From NCBI GenBank assembly GCA_016939365.1, contig JAFGHD010000042.1, positions 1 to 43,607 on the forward strand: a DNA stretch of 43,607 nucleotides, in the 5' to 3' direction. Both the position numbers and the translations under genes were made by a program. The notes under the pieces were generated by a model. That model searched no databases and was not told the DNA's origin. It saw only the letters and a program-made list of their open reading frames with translations. This DNA is from Bacteroidales bacterium (GTDB taxonomy: Bacteria > Bacteroidota > Bacteroidia > Bacteroidales > JAFGHD01). Positions 16,583-26,307 of this stretch are shown here, one piece after another. Each line of letters starts with the position of its first letter. Positions within the stretch are counted from its first letter, which is position 1.

Positions 16583-17690
16583 ATGATCTGATCGCGTTGG
16601 CCAGTTTCTCCTTTTCCTCTTCCCAGCAGAGATCACGTGAAGCCTTACCTGTGTTTGCCCTCCAACGGTTCATCGCTTCATTGTCATCCAGCATGCTTTT
16701 GATACAGCCGGCTATGTGTTCCGGGTCATGACTTTCAATCAACCGTCCCACATTATATTCCTTTATCACGGCCGCGATCTCGGGCAGAGGAGATGCCAAA
16801 ACCGGAATCCCTGCATGGATGTATTCAAAGAGTTTGTTGGGAAGGCAGTAGCGGTAATTCAGGCTGACATCCTTGTCGAGTGTGACACCCAGATCGGCAG
16901 CTGCAGTGTACCTGGGCAACAATGATGCGGGCAGGCGCGGAATGAATTTCACTTTGTCCTCCAGGTGAAACGATACAACCATCTTTTTCAGCCCGGGAAC
17001 GACATCACCTGCCCCTATGATGAGCAGCACAACATCGGTGAGATACTGCATGGCCATAATCAGCTCTTCAGCTCCGCGATGAATATTGATTCCTGATCCC
17101 TGAAGCAATACAATGCGGCGGTTTTCGGGAAGGCCGAGTTCTTTCCTGGTGATGGCCCCTATTGATGTCCCTGATGACGGTAAGTTCCGTACAACCTCCG
17201 TCCTGATCCCGTATTTGCGGTGGTACTCTCCGGCAATCGACCCGTTGACCGTGATCATCATCTTCAATCGCGGCACAATACTCTTTTCAATCCATTCCCA
17301 GGTACTCTTCACCCATTTCCGGTGAATCAACTCAGGCGTCTCCGTGAAATACTCATGACTGTCATAAATGATCGGTATCCTCCGGAACTTATGGACCAGC
17401 CAATTGGCCGGCAGGGTGTCCAGATCGTTCGAAAAAAGGATATCTGCTCTTCGGAATAGCAGGAAAAGGAAGAGCCGGATGTTATACTCCGCGTAAAATA
17501 ATGGCCCCTTATCAAAAACCAGTCGCATCCTGATCGCTTTGTAGGGTCTTGGATCCATGACTGGGCTGGATTTCCTGATTCGTCCGACCAGCACCACTTC
17601 ATAACCCAGTTCAACCAACACCATACATGTCCGATGCACCCGCTGGTCTGTCAACAGGTCATTTATCACCGACACGAATGCCTTTTTCAA
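16575..17690 (-). CDS. Glycosyltransferase family 4 protein
   Basis: 371 residues, GT-B fold. The start MKKAFVSVINDLLTDQRVHR is a common opening for Bacteroidota GT4 enzymes, which scan for the acceptor in the N-terminal half (IIYDSHEYFTE). The donor half contains VVLLQGSGINIHRGAEE, LLIIGAGDV and the nucleotide-sugar loop NKLFEYIHAGIPVLASPLPEI, which keeps the first glutamate of EX7E and its glycine-rich context. It probably transfers a sugar to a lipid-linked or surface glycan. It is the first gene of the pair and is divergent from murB across ~104 bp. Specific sugar unknown. Confidence 0.88.
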   Translation of the reverse strand: MKKAFVSVINDLLTDQRVHRTCMVLVELGYEVVLVGRIRKSSPVMDPRPYKAIRMRLVFDKGPLFYAEYNIRLFLFLLFRRADILFSNDLDTLPANWLVHKFRRIPIIYDSHEYFTETPELIHRKWVKSTWEWIEKSIVPRLKMMITVNGSIAGEYHRKYGIRTEVVRNLPSSGTSIGAITRKELGLPENRRIVLLQGSGINIHRGAEELIMAMQYLTDVVLLIIGAGDVVPGLKKMVVSFHLEDKVKFIPRLPASLLPRYTAAADLGVTLDKDVSLNYRYCLPNKLFEYIHAGIPVLASPLPEIAAVIKEYNVGRLIESHDPEHIAGCIKSMLDDNEAMNRWRANTGKASRDLCWEEEKEKLANAIRSYA

Positions 17691-17746
17691 TACAAAGTTT
17701 TTCTCCGGCGAAACTACGAATAATCACTCCTGGGAAAATCCCTGAC

Positions 17747-17777
17747 TTGGTTTTTGACCAATTCGGGTATATCTTTG
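17747..17777 (+). promoter_or_regulatory. Promoter TTG-N20-TATCTTTG for murB
   Basis: TTG at 17747-17749 and TATCTTTG at 17770-17777 are separated by 20 bp and match the Bacteroidota promoter exactly. Its position just before the ATG at 17795 rules out the longer frame starting at 17627 and fixes the murB start, with a very short leader. Confidence 0.8.
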
Positions 17778-17794
17778 GGCCATACCTTTTGCAT

Positions 17795-18811
17795 ATGAAA
17801 GTGCTGCGTCAGTACCCCTGTCTTTCGCTCAATACGTTGGGTTTAAGGGTAGATGCAAATTTCTTTGTCCGGGTTGCTTCCATTGAGGAATTGCCCGGGA
17901 TCAGGAAATTCATCCGCGACCGCCAGGTCCGTTATTTGATACTTGGTGGGGGAAGTAATGTGCTGTTCACGGGGGATTATGACGGTCTGATCCTCAAGGT
18001 GGAACTTCGCGGTATCGATGAGGTCGTGAATTACGGGCCTCACGTTCTCATCAGGGTGTCCGCCGGGGAGGATTGGGATGGATTCGTGGATCACTGTGTG
18101 AAAAGGGGCTGGGGAGGGCTGGAAAACCTTTCCATGATACCGGGAAGCGTTGGCGCGGCACCGGTCCAGAATATCGGTGCCTACGGGGTGGAGATGAAGG
18201 ATTGTTTGGAATGCCTGGAAGCATACGATATGGACCAAAACAGGATGATCACTTTCAGTGCCCGGGAATGCCGGTTCGGATACCGTGACAGCATTTTTAA
18301 AAGCACCTACGGACAAAGGATGCTGATCTGCTCGGTCACTTTCAGGCTCCGGAAGGAACCGATGATCAATATCTCATACGGTACCATCAGACAGGAGCTG
18401 GAAAGGATGCAGGTGAAGGAACCCGGAATAGCTGATGTCAGAAAGGCCGTATGCACGATCCGGAGCAGCAGGCTGCCCGATCCGCTGTTGCTGGGCAATG
18501 CAGGCAGCTTCTTCAAGAATCCGGAGGTGGAGGAAGGGGTCTATAACAGCCTGAAGTCAAGATTCCCTGCCATAACAGCTTATCCGACTGAAAGAGGTAC
18601 CTTTAAGCTGGCCGCAGGCTGGCTGATTGAGCATTGTGGCTGGAGGGGAAAGAGACTGGGCAGGGCAGGAGTGTTCGACAAACAGGCCCTCGTTCTGGTC
18701 AACTATGGAGGGGCATCAGCCTCGGAATTACTTGAGTTGGCGGAAAAAATCAAGAATGATGTGAAAGAACGCTTCGGTGTGTATCTTGAGACGGAAGTCA
18801 ACATCATCTGA
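17795..18811 (+). CDS. murB: UDP-N-acetylenolpyruvoylglucosamine reductase
   Basis: 338 residues from ATG 17795, close to E. coli MurB (342). It reduces UDP-GlcNAc-enolpyruvate to UDP-MurNAc using FAD and NADPH, the second committed step of peptidoglycan synthesis, in the cytoplasm. The FAD-binding segment YLILGGGSNVLFT, the IPGSVGAAPVQNIGAYG loop, the catalytic serine in GNAGSFFKNP and the terminal catalytic glutamate in LETEVNII are all present. The length and NIGAYG loop match type I MurB. It is followed by a DUF2851 gene 65 bp on. A second peptidoglycan precursor locus (murL, murD2) lies about 5 kb further right. Confidence 0.96.
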   Translation: MKVLRQYPCLSLNTLGLRVDANFFVRVASIEELPGIRKFIRDRQVRYLILGGGSNVLFTGDYDGLILKVELRGIDEVVNYGPHVLIRVSAGEDWDGFVDHCVKRGWGGLENLSMIPGSVGAAPVQNIGAYGVEMKDCLECLEAYDMDQNRMITFSARECRFGYRDSIFKSTYGQRMLICSVTFRLRKEPMINISYGTIRQELERMQVKEPGIADVRKAVCTIRSSRLPDPLLLGNAGSFFKNPEVEEGVYNSLKSRFPAITAYPTERGTFKLAAGWLIEHCGWRGKRLGRAGVFDKQALVLVNYGGASASELLELAEKIKNDVKERFGVYLETEVNII

Positions 18812-23525: not shown

Positions 23526-23553
23526 CAAAAATAATACCAATCATTGGCAACAA
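23526..23553 (-). promoter_or_regulatory. Possible yqgE promoter
   Basis: On the minus strand TATTTTTG (23533-23526) matches TAnnTTTG, with TTG at 23553-23551 giving a 17-bp spacer, slightly short. It lies ~60 bp ahead of the yqgE start at 23465 and overlaps the first codons proposed for murL. Confidence 0.4.
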
Positions 23554-24935
23554 AGGGGAATCCGGCCGGACGTTTCCACCTGCTCAGACGGGAATATGCC
23601 GGAATGACCTATAGAGGGTATGATTACAGTGTGGCGGATCAACGCATGGTGATCCGGTTTGACTTTGATCTGGACGACCGGTTCCGGTTCCGTCCGGAAA
23701 CGGAGATCATATTTCCCGAACCTGTAAACACAGCCCATTTACCGGAGGGGTTGCTTGACCATGCTGTCTTTCTCCTGGGTTTGACTGAACTGATCAGCTA
23801 CTGGAAGGCTGCCTGCCCGCCCAAGATCCGAATATTGCCGCACGGGCTGACAGAAATGCAGAAATCATGGTGGGCAGATCTGTTTTACCAGGGATTGGGT
23901 GAGTTCAGGTACCGAAATGGGATTGATGTTTCCCAAAAGGAGTTTGTGAGTATTGAATGTGAATCGGAGACCTTGCCCTTTCACAGCTTACCGCAGGCCT
24001 TGGACAGGGTGATGATTCCGGTCGGCGGAGGAAAGGATTCAGCTGTCACCCTTAATCTGCTGAAAACTCCGGACTTTATAAGGGTACCTTTTCTGATCAA
24101 TCCCGGAACTCCGTCAAGCCGGATAGTGGAAAGGGCAGGGATCCCGCTCCGGCAGAGCATCGTGATGATGCGGAAACTTGATCGGCAGCTGCTTGAATTG
24201 AACACTCGGGGATTTCTGAATGGACATACCCCTTTTTCGGCAATTGTGGCATTCGGGGGCTTGGTCGCTTCGTTGGCCGGCCGGACCGGATGGATGACAC
24301 TTTCCAATGAATCGAGTGCCAATGAACCAACTGTTCCGGGGACACTCATCAATCATCAATATTCAAAATCGCTTCATTTTGAGGAGCGCTTCAGGAACTA
24401 TATATCCCGCTATCTAACCAATGGGCTTGTCTATTTCAGCTTCCTCAGACCCCTGAATGAGCTGCAGATCGCAAGATTATTCAGCCGGATGGATCATTAT
24501 CATGACGTATTCATCAGTTGTAATTCAGGATATCGTCATAACCGATGGTGCGGTGAATGTCCGAAATGCCTCTTCAGTTGGATCATCCTGGCTCCCTTTC
24601 TGCCACAAGAAACCCTGCAGGGCATCTTTGGCAGCAATCTGCTGGATAAGTCTGAACTCAGGGATATTTTCGACCAGCTTACTGGGATTTCAGAGATGAA
24701 GCCGTTCGAATGTGTGGGAACTCTGGATGAGGTCAACGTTGCACTCTGTATGACCATGGAACGCTACGACGATAGCCGTTACCCCGCTCTTCTGAAGTAT
24801 TATGCCCTGACGGATGCCTGCCGGAGATACCGTCAGGTGGATCCGCAAAGATACCTTTCAGGATTTGACAAAAATCATTTTGTCCCCTTTCCTTATCTGG
24901 ACATTCTCAAAAATGCGATCGATGAGCAGGTGTGA
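23544..24935 (+). CDS. murL: UDP-MurNAc-L-Ala-L-Glu epimerase (MurL-like)
   Basis: 463 residues if translation starts at TTG 23544; ATG 23604 (MTYRGYDYSV) is a good alternative, as little before it is needed for the fold. MurL of Xanthomonas is an ATP-dependent enzyme that epimerises the terminal L-Glu of UDP-MurNAc-L-Ala-L-Glu. The protein shows the PP-loop-like motif PVGGGKDS at 160-166 (pyrophosphatase-type ATP site), SNESSANEPTV, and a WCGECPKC cluster near residues 330-340, all features I associate with MurL. It is followed 4 bp later by a Mur ligase (MurD2-like), the same gene pair used to define the pathway. Assignment rests on motif memory and the neighbour, not on an alignment. Confidence 0.83.
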   Translation: MATKGNPAGRFHLLRREYAGMTYRGYDYSVADQRMVIRFDFDLDDRFRFRPETEIIFPEPVNTAHLPEGLLDHAVFLLGLTELISYWKAACPPKIRILPHGLTEMQKSWWADLFYQGLGEFRYRNGIDVSQKEFVSIECESETLPFHSLPQALDRVMIPVGGGKDSAVTLNLLKTPDFIRVPFLINPGTPSSRIVERAGIPLRQSIVMMRKLDRQLLELNTRGFLNGHTPFSAIVAFGGLVASLAGRTGWMTLSNESSANEPTVPGTLINHQYSKSLHFEERFRNYISRYLTNGLVYFSFLRPLNELQIARLFSRMDHYHDVFISCNSGYRHNRWCGECPKCLFSWIILAPFLPQETLQGIFGSNLLDKSELRDIFDQLTGISEMKPFECVGTLDEVNVALCMTMERYDDSRYPALLKYYALTDACRRYRQVDPQRYLSGFDKNHFVPFPYLDILKNAIDEQV

Positions 24936-24939
24936 GGAA

Positions 24940-26307
24940 ATGAAGACGTGGCTGGAGGGTAAATCGATCCTGCTGCTGGGCTTCGGGCGGGAAGGCCGCT
25001 CCACCTTTCGCTGGCTCAGGAGCATGTTGCCCGAATCCGGCCTCGCCGTTGCCGACCGGGATGATCAGGCTTTGAAGGAATTGAGAGGTGATGAGCGGGT
25101 AACCCTGTTCCATGGCCCGGACTACCTTTCGGCCGTTGCCGGGTATGATATCGTATTCCGGACGCCCGGGTTACCCATGAGCATTCTGAAGAAGATTGTG
25201 GACCCGGAGAAAATTACCTCGCAGACCGATATCTTCCTTCGTCTTTTTTCCCGTCAGGTTATCGGCGTGACGGGGACAAAAGGCAAAAGCACGACATCTA
25301 CCCTGATCCATGAAATCATCAAATCTTCCGGCAACCATACCCTTCTGGCCGGAAATATCGGTGTTCCTCCCTTTGAGATCATGGACCGGATCAAACCGGG
25401 AACATGGGTCGTACTCGAACTGTCCTCCCATCAACTGGAACAGATCCGGACCGGGCCGGCCATATCTGTGATCCTGAACCTGTACCAGGAGCATCTTGAT
25501 CATCACAGCGATTTTCTTTCCTATCAGGAAGCCAAGTTCAACCTGGTACGGAATATGAATCAATACGGTACGCTGATCTACAACCTCGATGACCTGCTGG
25601 TCTCCCGTCATGCTGAGGAAAAGGTTCCGGAAAAACAAAGATTTGGATTTACATACCTTGGATTTCCGGATTCAGGGGTCTGTTTTTCCAATGGGAATGT
25701 TCTTGTAAGGCATCTGGGTCAAGCCTTGGCGAAATACCCAGTTGACAGCAGGCAGTCACTGCCTGGAATACATAATGTCTACAATATCATGGCCTCCGTG
25801 GCTGCAACCTGGACAGCCGAAATTTCAGGCATTGGGGTGTCCGAAACTGTGAACTCCTTCAGGGGATTGCCGCACCGGATGGAAAACATTGGCACTTTCG
25901 GAGGAATCACCTTCTATAATGATTCCATATCAACCGTGCCGGAATCCACCATGATGGCAATTAAATCGATCAGGGGCATTCATACCCTGATTCTTGGTGG
26001 AAAGGACAGGGGAGTGGATTATTCCGGCCTGATCAGTTTCGTGGCATCATCCGAGATACCTGTGGTCATTTGCACAGGTGAAACAGGGATTCGGATATTC
26101 AAAGCCCTGACGGGTGAAAAAAACTGGAGCGGTAATTGTTACATGGCTTCCGGTTACGACGAAATCACCCTACTGATCAGGGAACATACCCTGCCCGGAG
26201 GAATATGCCTTTTGTCGCCAGCAGCTTCCAGCTATGATATGTTCAGGAATTTCCAGGAAAGAGGTGACCGTTTCCGGCAAATCGCATTACAGATGAAAGG
26301 GGTATGA
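24940..26307 (+). CDS. murD2: UDP-N-acetylmuramoyl-L-alanine-L-glutamate ligase (MurD2-like)
   Basis: 455 residues from ATG 24940; this start gives MKTWLEGKSILLLGFGREG, the normal Rossmann opening, and follows the murL stop by 4 bp. Upstream ATGs at 24913 and 24922 would overlap murL. The Mur ligase ATP site is GVTGTKGKSTTSTLIHE, the catalytic glutamate and histidine area reads VVLELSSHQLE and NLYQEHLDHH, and the C-terminal domain has NDSISTVPEST, LGGKDRGVDYSGL and SPAASSYDMF. Sequence features are MurD-like; pairing with murL suggests it adds L-Glu, to be epimerised next door. It is cytoplasmic. If it were classical MurD it would use D-Glu and be expected in the dcw cluster. Confidence 0.85.
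   Translation: MKTWLEGKSILLLGFGREGRSTFRWLRSMLPESGLAVADRDDQALKELRGDERVTLFHGPDYLSAVAGYDIVFRTPGLPMSILKKIVDPEKITSQTDIFLRLFSRQVIGVTGTKGKSTTSTLIHEIIKSSGNHTLLAGNIGVPPFEIMDRIKPGTWVVLELSSHQLEQIRTGPAISVILNLYQEHLDHHSDFLSYQEAKFNLVRNMNQYGTLIYNLDDLLVSRHAEEKVPEKQRFGFTYLGFPDSGVCFSNGNVLVRHLGQALAKYPVDSRQSLPGIHNVYNIMASVAATWTAEISGIGVSETVNSFRGLPHRMENIGTFGGITFYNDSISTVPESTMMAIKSIRGIHTLILGGKDRGVDYSGLISFVASSEIPVVICTGETGIRIFKALTGEKNWSGNCYMASGYDEITLLIREHTLPGGICLLSPAASSYDMFRNFQERGDRFRQIALQMKGV

Follow-up and report, generated by a model that had tools for sequence, protein, structure and literature searches.

A murL–murD2 gene pair as the very probable route to peptidoglycan D-glutamate in a Bacteroidales genome without glutamate racemase, and stand-alone MurD C-terminal domains among its relatives

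The window, the whole stretch of 43,607 nt analysed here (contig JAFGHD010000042.1 of a Bacteroidales assembly, GCA_016939365.1), carries the adjacent genes murL and murD2 (Table 1). A first-pass annotation had read them as the gene of a MurL-like epimerase with the motifs PVGGGKDS and WCGECPKC, followed at a distance of 4 bp by that of a MurD-type ligase, the pair lying outside any dcw cluster. We found the spacing to be as described; the dcw cluster of the organism (murE-mraY-murD-ftsW-murG-murC) is on another contig, C192.

Table 1. Coordinates of the features discussed in the text (positions without a locus prefix are those of the window)
Feature	Position	Strand	Description
murB	17627..18811		about 5 kb upstream of the pair
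murL	23544..24935	+	TTG start, 463 aa; NF041275 match, AF2 model
PP-loop PVGGGKDS	24018..24041	+	MurL residues 159-166; predicted ATP site
Cys site SC(N)...WCGECPKC	24516..24569	+	C326-x9-C336-x2-C339-x2-C342; predicted metal site, similar to QueC zinc site
murD2	24940..26307	+	455 aa, ATG 4 bp past murL stop; TIGR01087
Glu184 of MurD2	25489..25491	+	corresponds to position 182 of E. coli MurD; D-Glu enzymes have Asp
Ile330 of MurD2	25927..25929	+	corresponds to position 319 of E. coli MurD; D-Glu enzymes have Lys
Arg357 of MurD2	26008..26010	+	corresponds to position 348 of E. coli MurD; D-Glu enzymes have Lys
dcw murD of this genome	L092:6264-7607	-	full length
Fused MurL-MurD2 ORF	L131:9968-12670	+	single ORF
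Fused MurL-MurD2 ORF	L144:9944-12931	+	single ORF
Fused MurL-MurD2 ORF	L152:9929-12673	+	single ORF
Fused MurL-MurD2 ORF	L168:9908-12694	+	single ORF
Fused MurL-MurD2 ORF	L181:9709-12465	+	single ORF
Half-MurD (example)	L091:5027-5584	-	stand-alone C-terminal domain
Half-MurD (example)	L081:4969-5604	+	stand-alone C-terminal domain
Half-MurD (others)	L187, L188 and 29 further loci		stand-alone C-terminal domain

The murL product matched NF041275, the MurL equivalog profile, with E = 3.1e-76 and 256.7 bits over profile positions 25-397 of 447. The cut-off of this profile is 700 bits, as set for Xanthomonadales; the window MurL, with ∼257 bits, falls below it, so automatic annotation would leave the protein unnamed. 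The two motifs of the earlier reading proved invariant or nearly so: in alignments of 22 and of 47 homologues there was no variation at P159 and G161-S166 of the PP-loop, nor at the four cysteines C326, C336, C339 and C342 (WCGECPKC being residues 335-342).

Reviews describe MurL as a protein without known conserved domains (PMC5808125, PMC8788868). We obtained no Pfam match for the window MurL at 1e-3 and no clear family from PADLOC; a sequence search of the PDB returned weak PP-loop matches only, with no solved MurL relative among them. An AlphaFold2 model built from 47 sequences (mean pLDDT 93.3) had QatC as its best structural match (Z 18.2, 322 residues, spanning residues 17-423), followed by QueC (Z 12.6), Cap9 (12.1) and other PP-loop enzymes (8 or lower). 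The predicted structure brings together the QueC/QatC fold, the PP-loop and the four-Cys site; a common fold with the QatC/QueC PP-loop enzymes is predicted for MurL. Searching the MurL family with PF06508 (QueC) gave no significant result (7 of 22 members matched, best E 0.019); with no sequence match to Pfam QueC, we claim the shared fold and not membership in PF06508. QueC requires ATP and zinc and has the motifs SGGxDS and C(x)8CxxCxxC (PMC13329287). The MurL of Xanthomonas oryzae requires ATP and forms AMP, an adenylated carboxylate having been proposed by its discoverers (PMC8788868, PMC5808125); the predicted fold fits this ATP-to-AMP chemistry and offers a concrete mechanism to test for MurL.

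The second protein scored 303.6 bits against TIGR01087 (MurD), above the cut-off. Its specificity residues include Tyr432 along with E184, I330 and R357. In an alignment of 94 rows of MurD2, we observed E at position 182 (E. coli numbering) in 90 of 93 sequences, I at 319 in 92 of 92, R at 348 in 91 of 91 and Tyr at 416 in 87 of 90; full-length dcw MurDs have D/K/K at 182/319/348. By mutation, E197 and R358 of X. oryzae MurD2 (D182 and K348 in E. coli) have been shown to set the use of L-Glu, and E. coli MurD gains L-Glu acceptance upon K319T replacement (PMC8788868). The profile score, along with E182 and R348 as in the Xanthomonas enzyme, bears out the earlier assignment to the MurD2 type; judged from its specificity residues, the window ligase is a putative L-Glu-type MurD2. 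With E/I/R in this protein and D/K/K in the dcw MurD, the genome would hold both an L-Glu-type and a D-Glu-type ligase.

In the assembly, 97.5% complete, no MurI was detected: the best match to TIGR00067 was an aspartate-racemase-type protein with 25 bits (cut-off 146.65). The genome encodes only two proteins of the Asp/Glu-racemase superfamily, C73 (YgeA-like) and C194 (CuyB-like), and neither is a MurI (25-26 bits versus curated cut-offs of 147-328). A dedicated D-amino-acid transaminase over cut-off was not found in the genome, nor was a TIGR01121 transaminase in 60 relatives. The absence of murI, on which the first-pass annotation had made its interpretation depend, was thus borne out. Its statement that the pair replaces the classical MurD did not hold as worded, as the organism's own dcw cluster (C192) keeps, between mraY and ftsW, a full-length, catalytically intact MurD with the D-Glu-type residues D182, K319 and K348. 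Of the two genes whose joint presence had been named as evidence against the proposal, a murI and a dcw-located D-Glu-type murD, only the murD is there.

We considered the distribution of the enzymes in 60 relatives, drawn as one genome for each family of the order, with a second one for the window's own genus. MurI was over cut-off in 36 genomes and MurL was present in 23 (including G053, counted by a fragment only); none had both and one, G016, had neither. MurI over cut-off was likewise seen in none of 50 further MurL-positive genomes, Clostridia included. A scan of named genomes gave at least 574 MurL relatives, mostly from Bacteroidales MAGs, with some from Clostridia (e.g. Eubacterium sp. 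ER2). Among 296 genomes drawn from across the phylum, only the window's own had MurL, with nothing but chance-level fragments outside its order; more than 30 of these 296 Bacteroidota, across several families and including some outside the order, had neither MurI over cut-off nor MurL. Missing MurI alone is therefore no predictor of MurL. The MurL-positive genomes cluster on the MraY tree, so the mutual exclusion of MurL and MurI reflects few evolutionary switches and, in part, shared ancestry. Across the order MurL cleanly replaces MurI, with MurD kept either whole or as its C-terminal half.

MurL in seven records of Clostridia and other Bacillota (L157, L171, L172, L174, L175, L137, L143) was 41-46% identical; four of the seven had only one MurD-type ligase and no second MurD. 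The taxa listed in print for MurL (PMC8788868; PMC5808125) include neither Bacteroidota nor these Clostridia/Bacillota carriers, and in the open literature (subscription journals being mostly outside the search) we found no paper on MurL in Bacteroidota. In G016 (L101, L227-L230) we detected no MurI, MurL, MurD, MurD2 or MurC; MurE, MurF-like and Mpl-like proteins, MraY and a diverged half-MurD were present. Wall precursors of this organism may perhaps come only from tripeptide salvaged via Mpl.

Of 80 other loci, 79 had MurL and MurD2 together. Five of these had them as a single ORF of 901-996 aa, matching MurL and then MurD, and all five fused forms share the MurD2 specificity pattern; the genomes are gut/rumen or environmental Bacteroidales MAGs. 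In another genome, G055 (L031, L090, L097), we saw a half-MurD and a MurL interrupted by one internal stop, with MurD2 and full-length MurD absent from the assembly; either sequence is missing or the pathway has decayed.

The dcw murD of MurL-positive Bacteroidales was either full length or reduced to the C-terminal domain alone. Half-MurDs were seen in nine MurL-positive genomes of the 60 relatives and in G016 (G053, a true contig-edge case, was left out of this count), while 43 further MurL-positive Bacteroidales comprised 23 with the half and 20 with the full form, the domain being missing in none. Considering readable dcw slots, halves occupied 32 of 64 in MurL-positive genomes versus 0 of 35 in MurI-positive ones (Fisher p 2e-8, relatedness ignored); one MurI-positive genome, 70% complete, had no MurD in its assembly. 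We rejected contig-edge truncation for the half-MurD of G006, as its frame, like the others, directly adjoins the end of mraY. The half-MurD frames, 178-239 aa long, were open in 33 genomes (32 MurL-positive and G016); they lay directly after mraY in most genomes and were followed by ftsW in all 32 genomes with ftsW detected. In most genomes the frame began at or near the Met equivalent to residue 267 of the MurD of the window's organism. No separate N-terminal MurD gene was seen among the MurD-profile matches listed for half-MurD genomes.

How, then, is D-Glu of the wall supplied? Earlier work on Xanthomonas, Micromonospora and Salinispora has established both reactions of the pathway: ordinary L-glutamate would be attached first and then flipped to the D form on the wall precursor, and the same reactions presumably hold in this organism. 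The absence of MurI, the specificity residues, the exclusion between MurL and MurI and the linkage and fusion of the two genes, taken together, make it very probable that murL-murD2 is the organism's route to peptidoglycan D-Glu, in place of the missing glutamate racemase; the pair would be its main or only D-Glu source.

Alternatively, the YgeA-like or the CuyB-like racemase could produce D-Glu for the dcw MurD to attach, with MurL-MurD2 as a backup. The genome does encode the two racemases as well as an intact D-Glu-type MurD, and weak racemase-family matches seem somewhat commoner in full-MurD than in half-MurD MurL-positive genomes (genome size ignored). However, the scores of both proteins are far from those of MurI, many MurL-positive genomes have no such racemase, and the half-MurD genomes, which cannot use free D-Glu via MurD, yet keep MurL. 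Besides, E. coli murI mutants require D-Glu though ygeA is present. We regard this alternative as improbable. That the pair serves another pathway, such as that of a secondary glycopeptide, would suit its position outside the dcw cluster, but is hardly credible given the strict exclusion of MurI in the sampled genomes and specificity residues matching those of Xanthomonas MurD2.

If the murL-murD2 pair supplies D-Glu, an intact D-Glu-type MurD may be kept for scavenged D-Glu, for a minor racemase or for a second role of the protein. At least five changes between full and half forms are required by well-supported branches of the MraY tree, and ten by parsimony; halves neighbour full forms, as G373 does beside the window's genus. 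For six pairs the dN/dS of half-MurD was 0.05-0.18 (with synonymous sites near saturation except in the closest pair) and that of MraY 0.02-0.09. D317 is kept in 33 of 33 halves. In the full-length MurDs of MurL-positive genomes the checked catalytic residues were intact, bar one D182N in 29, but their N-terminal part is the faster-evolving one: dN/dS in the three closest pairs was ∼0.11-0.15 there versus 0.02-0.08 for the C-terminal part.

One could argue that half-MurD genes are decaying pseudogenes kept by operon position or by translational coupling to ftsW. The D-Glu contact residues (348 and 415) are lost in many of them, and the most diverged are only 32-36% identical to the MurD of the window's organism. 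Against such decay stand the low dN/dS values and the frames still open in all 33 genomes; furthermore, the domain, whole or half, is present in 43 of 43 further MurL-positive Bacteroidales, with four of seven Clostridia having no dcw MurD. We therefore consider decay unlikely. Purifying selection on the half-MurDs points to a non-catalytic role, and that the C-terminal domain has repeatedly survived on its own speaks for a second role of MurD; this suggests that the domain has a second, non-catalytic function, perhaps in holding together the assembly on the MraY/MurG/FtsW side. In Thermotoga, MurD reportedly binds MurG and MreB (PMC6420597), so that it might plausibly act as a scaffold here. 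With some reserve, we lean to the reading that in MurL/MurD2 Bacteroidales the C-terminal domain of dcw MurD is a functional non-catalytic part of the mraY-ftsW-murG machinery, set free on five or more independent occasions, with no loss among the genomes examined. Our search of the open literature, which left subscription journals mostly aside, gave no paper describing a stand-alone C-terminal domain of MurD.

The dcw MurD of the window's organism has an in-frame ATG at the exact half-MurD start (residue 267, MTIDNLALQG) with A-rich sequence upstream. A Met at this place is also present in most full-length MurDs, and the upstream A-rich sequence is a feature of full-length murD in MurL-positive genomes; after thinning for relatedness, its value there was 0.88 versus 0.78 in MurI-positive genomes (p 0.13). 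As the MurI-positive genes are A-rich too after thinning, a MurL-specific internal translation start was kept as an idea only. The higher conservation of MTLEELALQG in MurL-positive genes was not accepted as evidence of a start site, since common descent alone may account for it.

Both enzymes, glutamate racemase and MurD, are targets for drugs. A considerable fraction of Bacteroidales families (23 of the 60 genomes sampled), along with some gut Clostridia, appear to have no glutamate racemase and to use the MurL/MurD2 route, which has been described for few genera, mainly Xanthomonas. If the reading of the C-terminal domain is true, MurD would have a structural function that can be separated from ligation; the stranded domain is a natural separation-of-function experiment that makes the old question of a Mur-ligase scaffold directly testable where MurD catalysis has passed to another enzyme.

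Among known systems the closest is X. oryzae XOO_1319/XOO_1320: there, too, MurL and MurD2 are adjacent, the ligase has D182E and K348R, MurI and D-amino-acid transaminase are missing and the epimerase uses ATP (in the window, by homology). The differences are the score of only ∼257 bits for the window MurL against the Xanthomonadales profile, Ile at position 319 of its MurD2, the presence of the pair across many Bacteroidales families and Clostridia, its fusion in five genomes and its coexistence with a whole or halved dcw MurD. The canonical dcw MurD shares with the window MurD2 the ligase fold, the catalytic residues and the addition of the second stem-peptide residue; it has D/K/K/F (L in E. 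coli) at positions 182/319/348/416 where MurD2 has E/I/R/Y, as expected for L-Glu. MurL itself resembles QatC (of the qatABCD defence system) and QueC in its predicted PP-loop fold, the match to QatC being whole-length, and in carboxylate chemistry converting ATP to AMP (AMP being known from the X. oryzae work); its C-x9-CxxCxxC motif is close to the C-x8-CxxCxxC zinc site of QueC. Unlike these enzymes, MurL has GGGKDS in place of the SGGxDS of QueC and epimerises its substrate, a UDP-MurNAc dipeptide.
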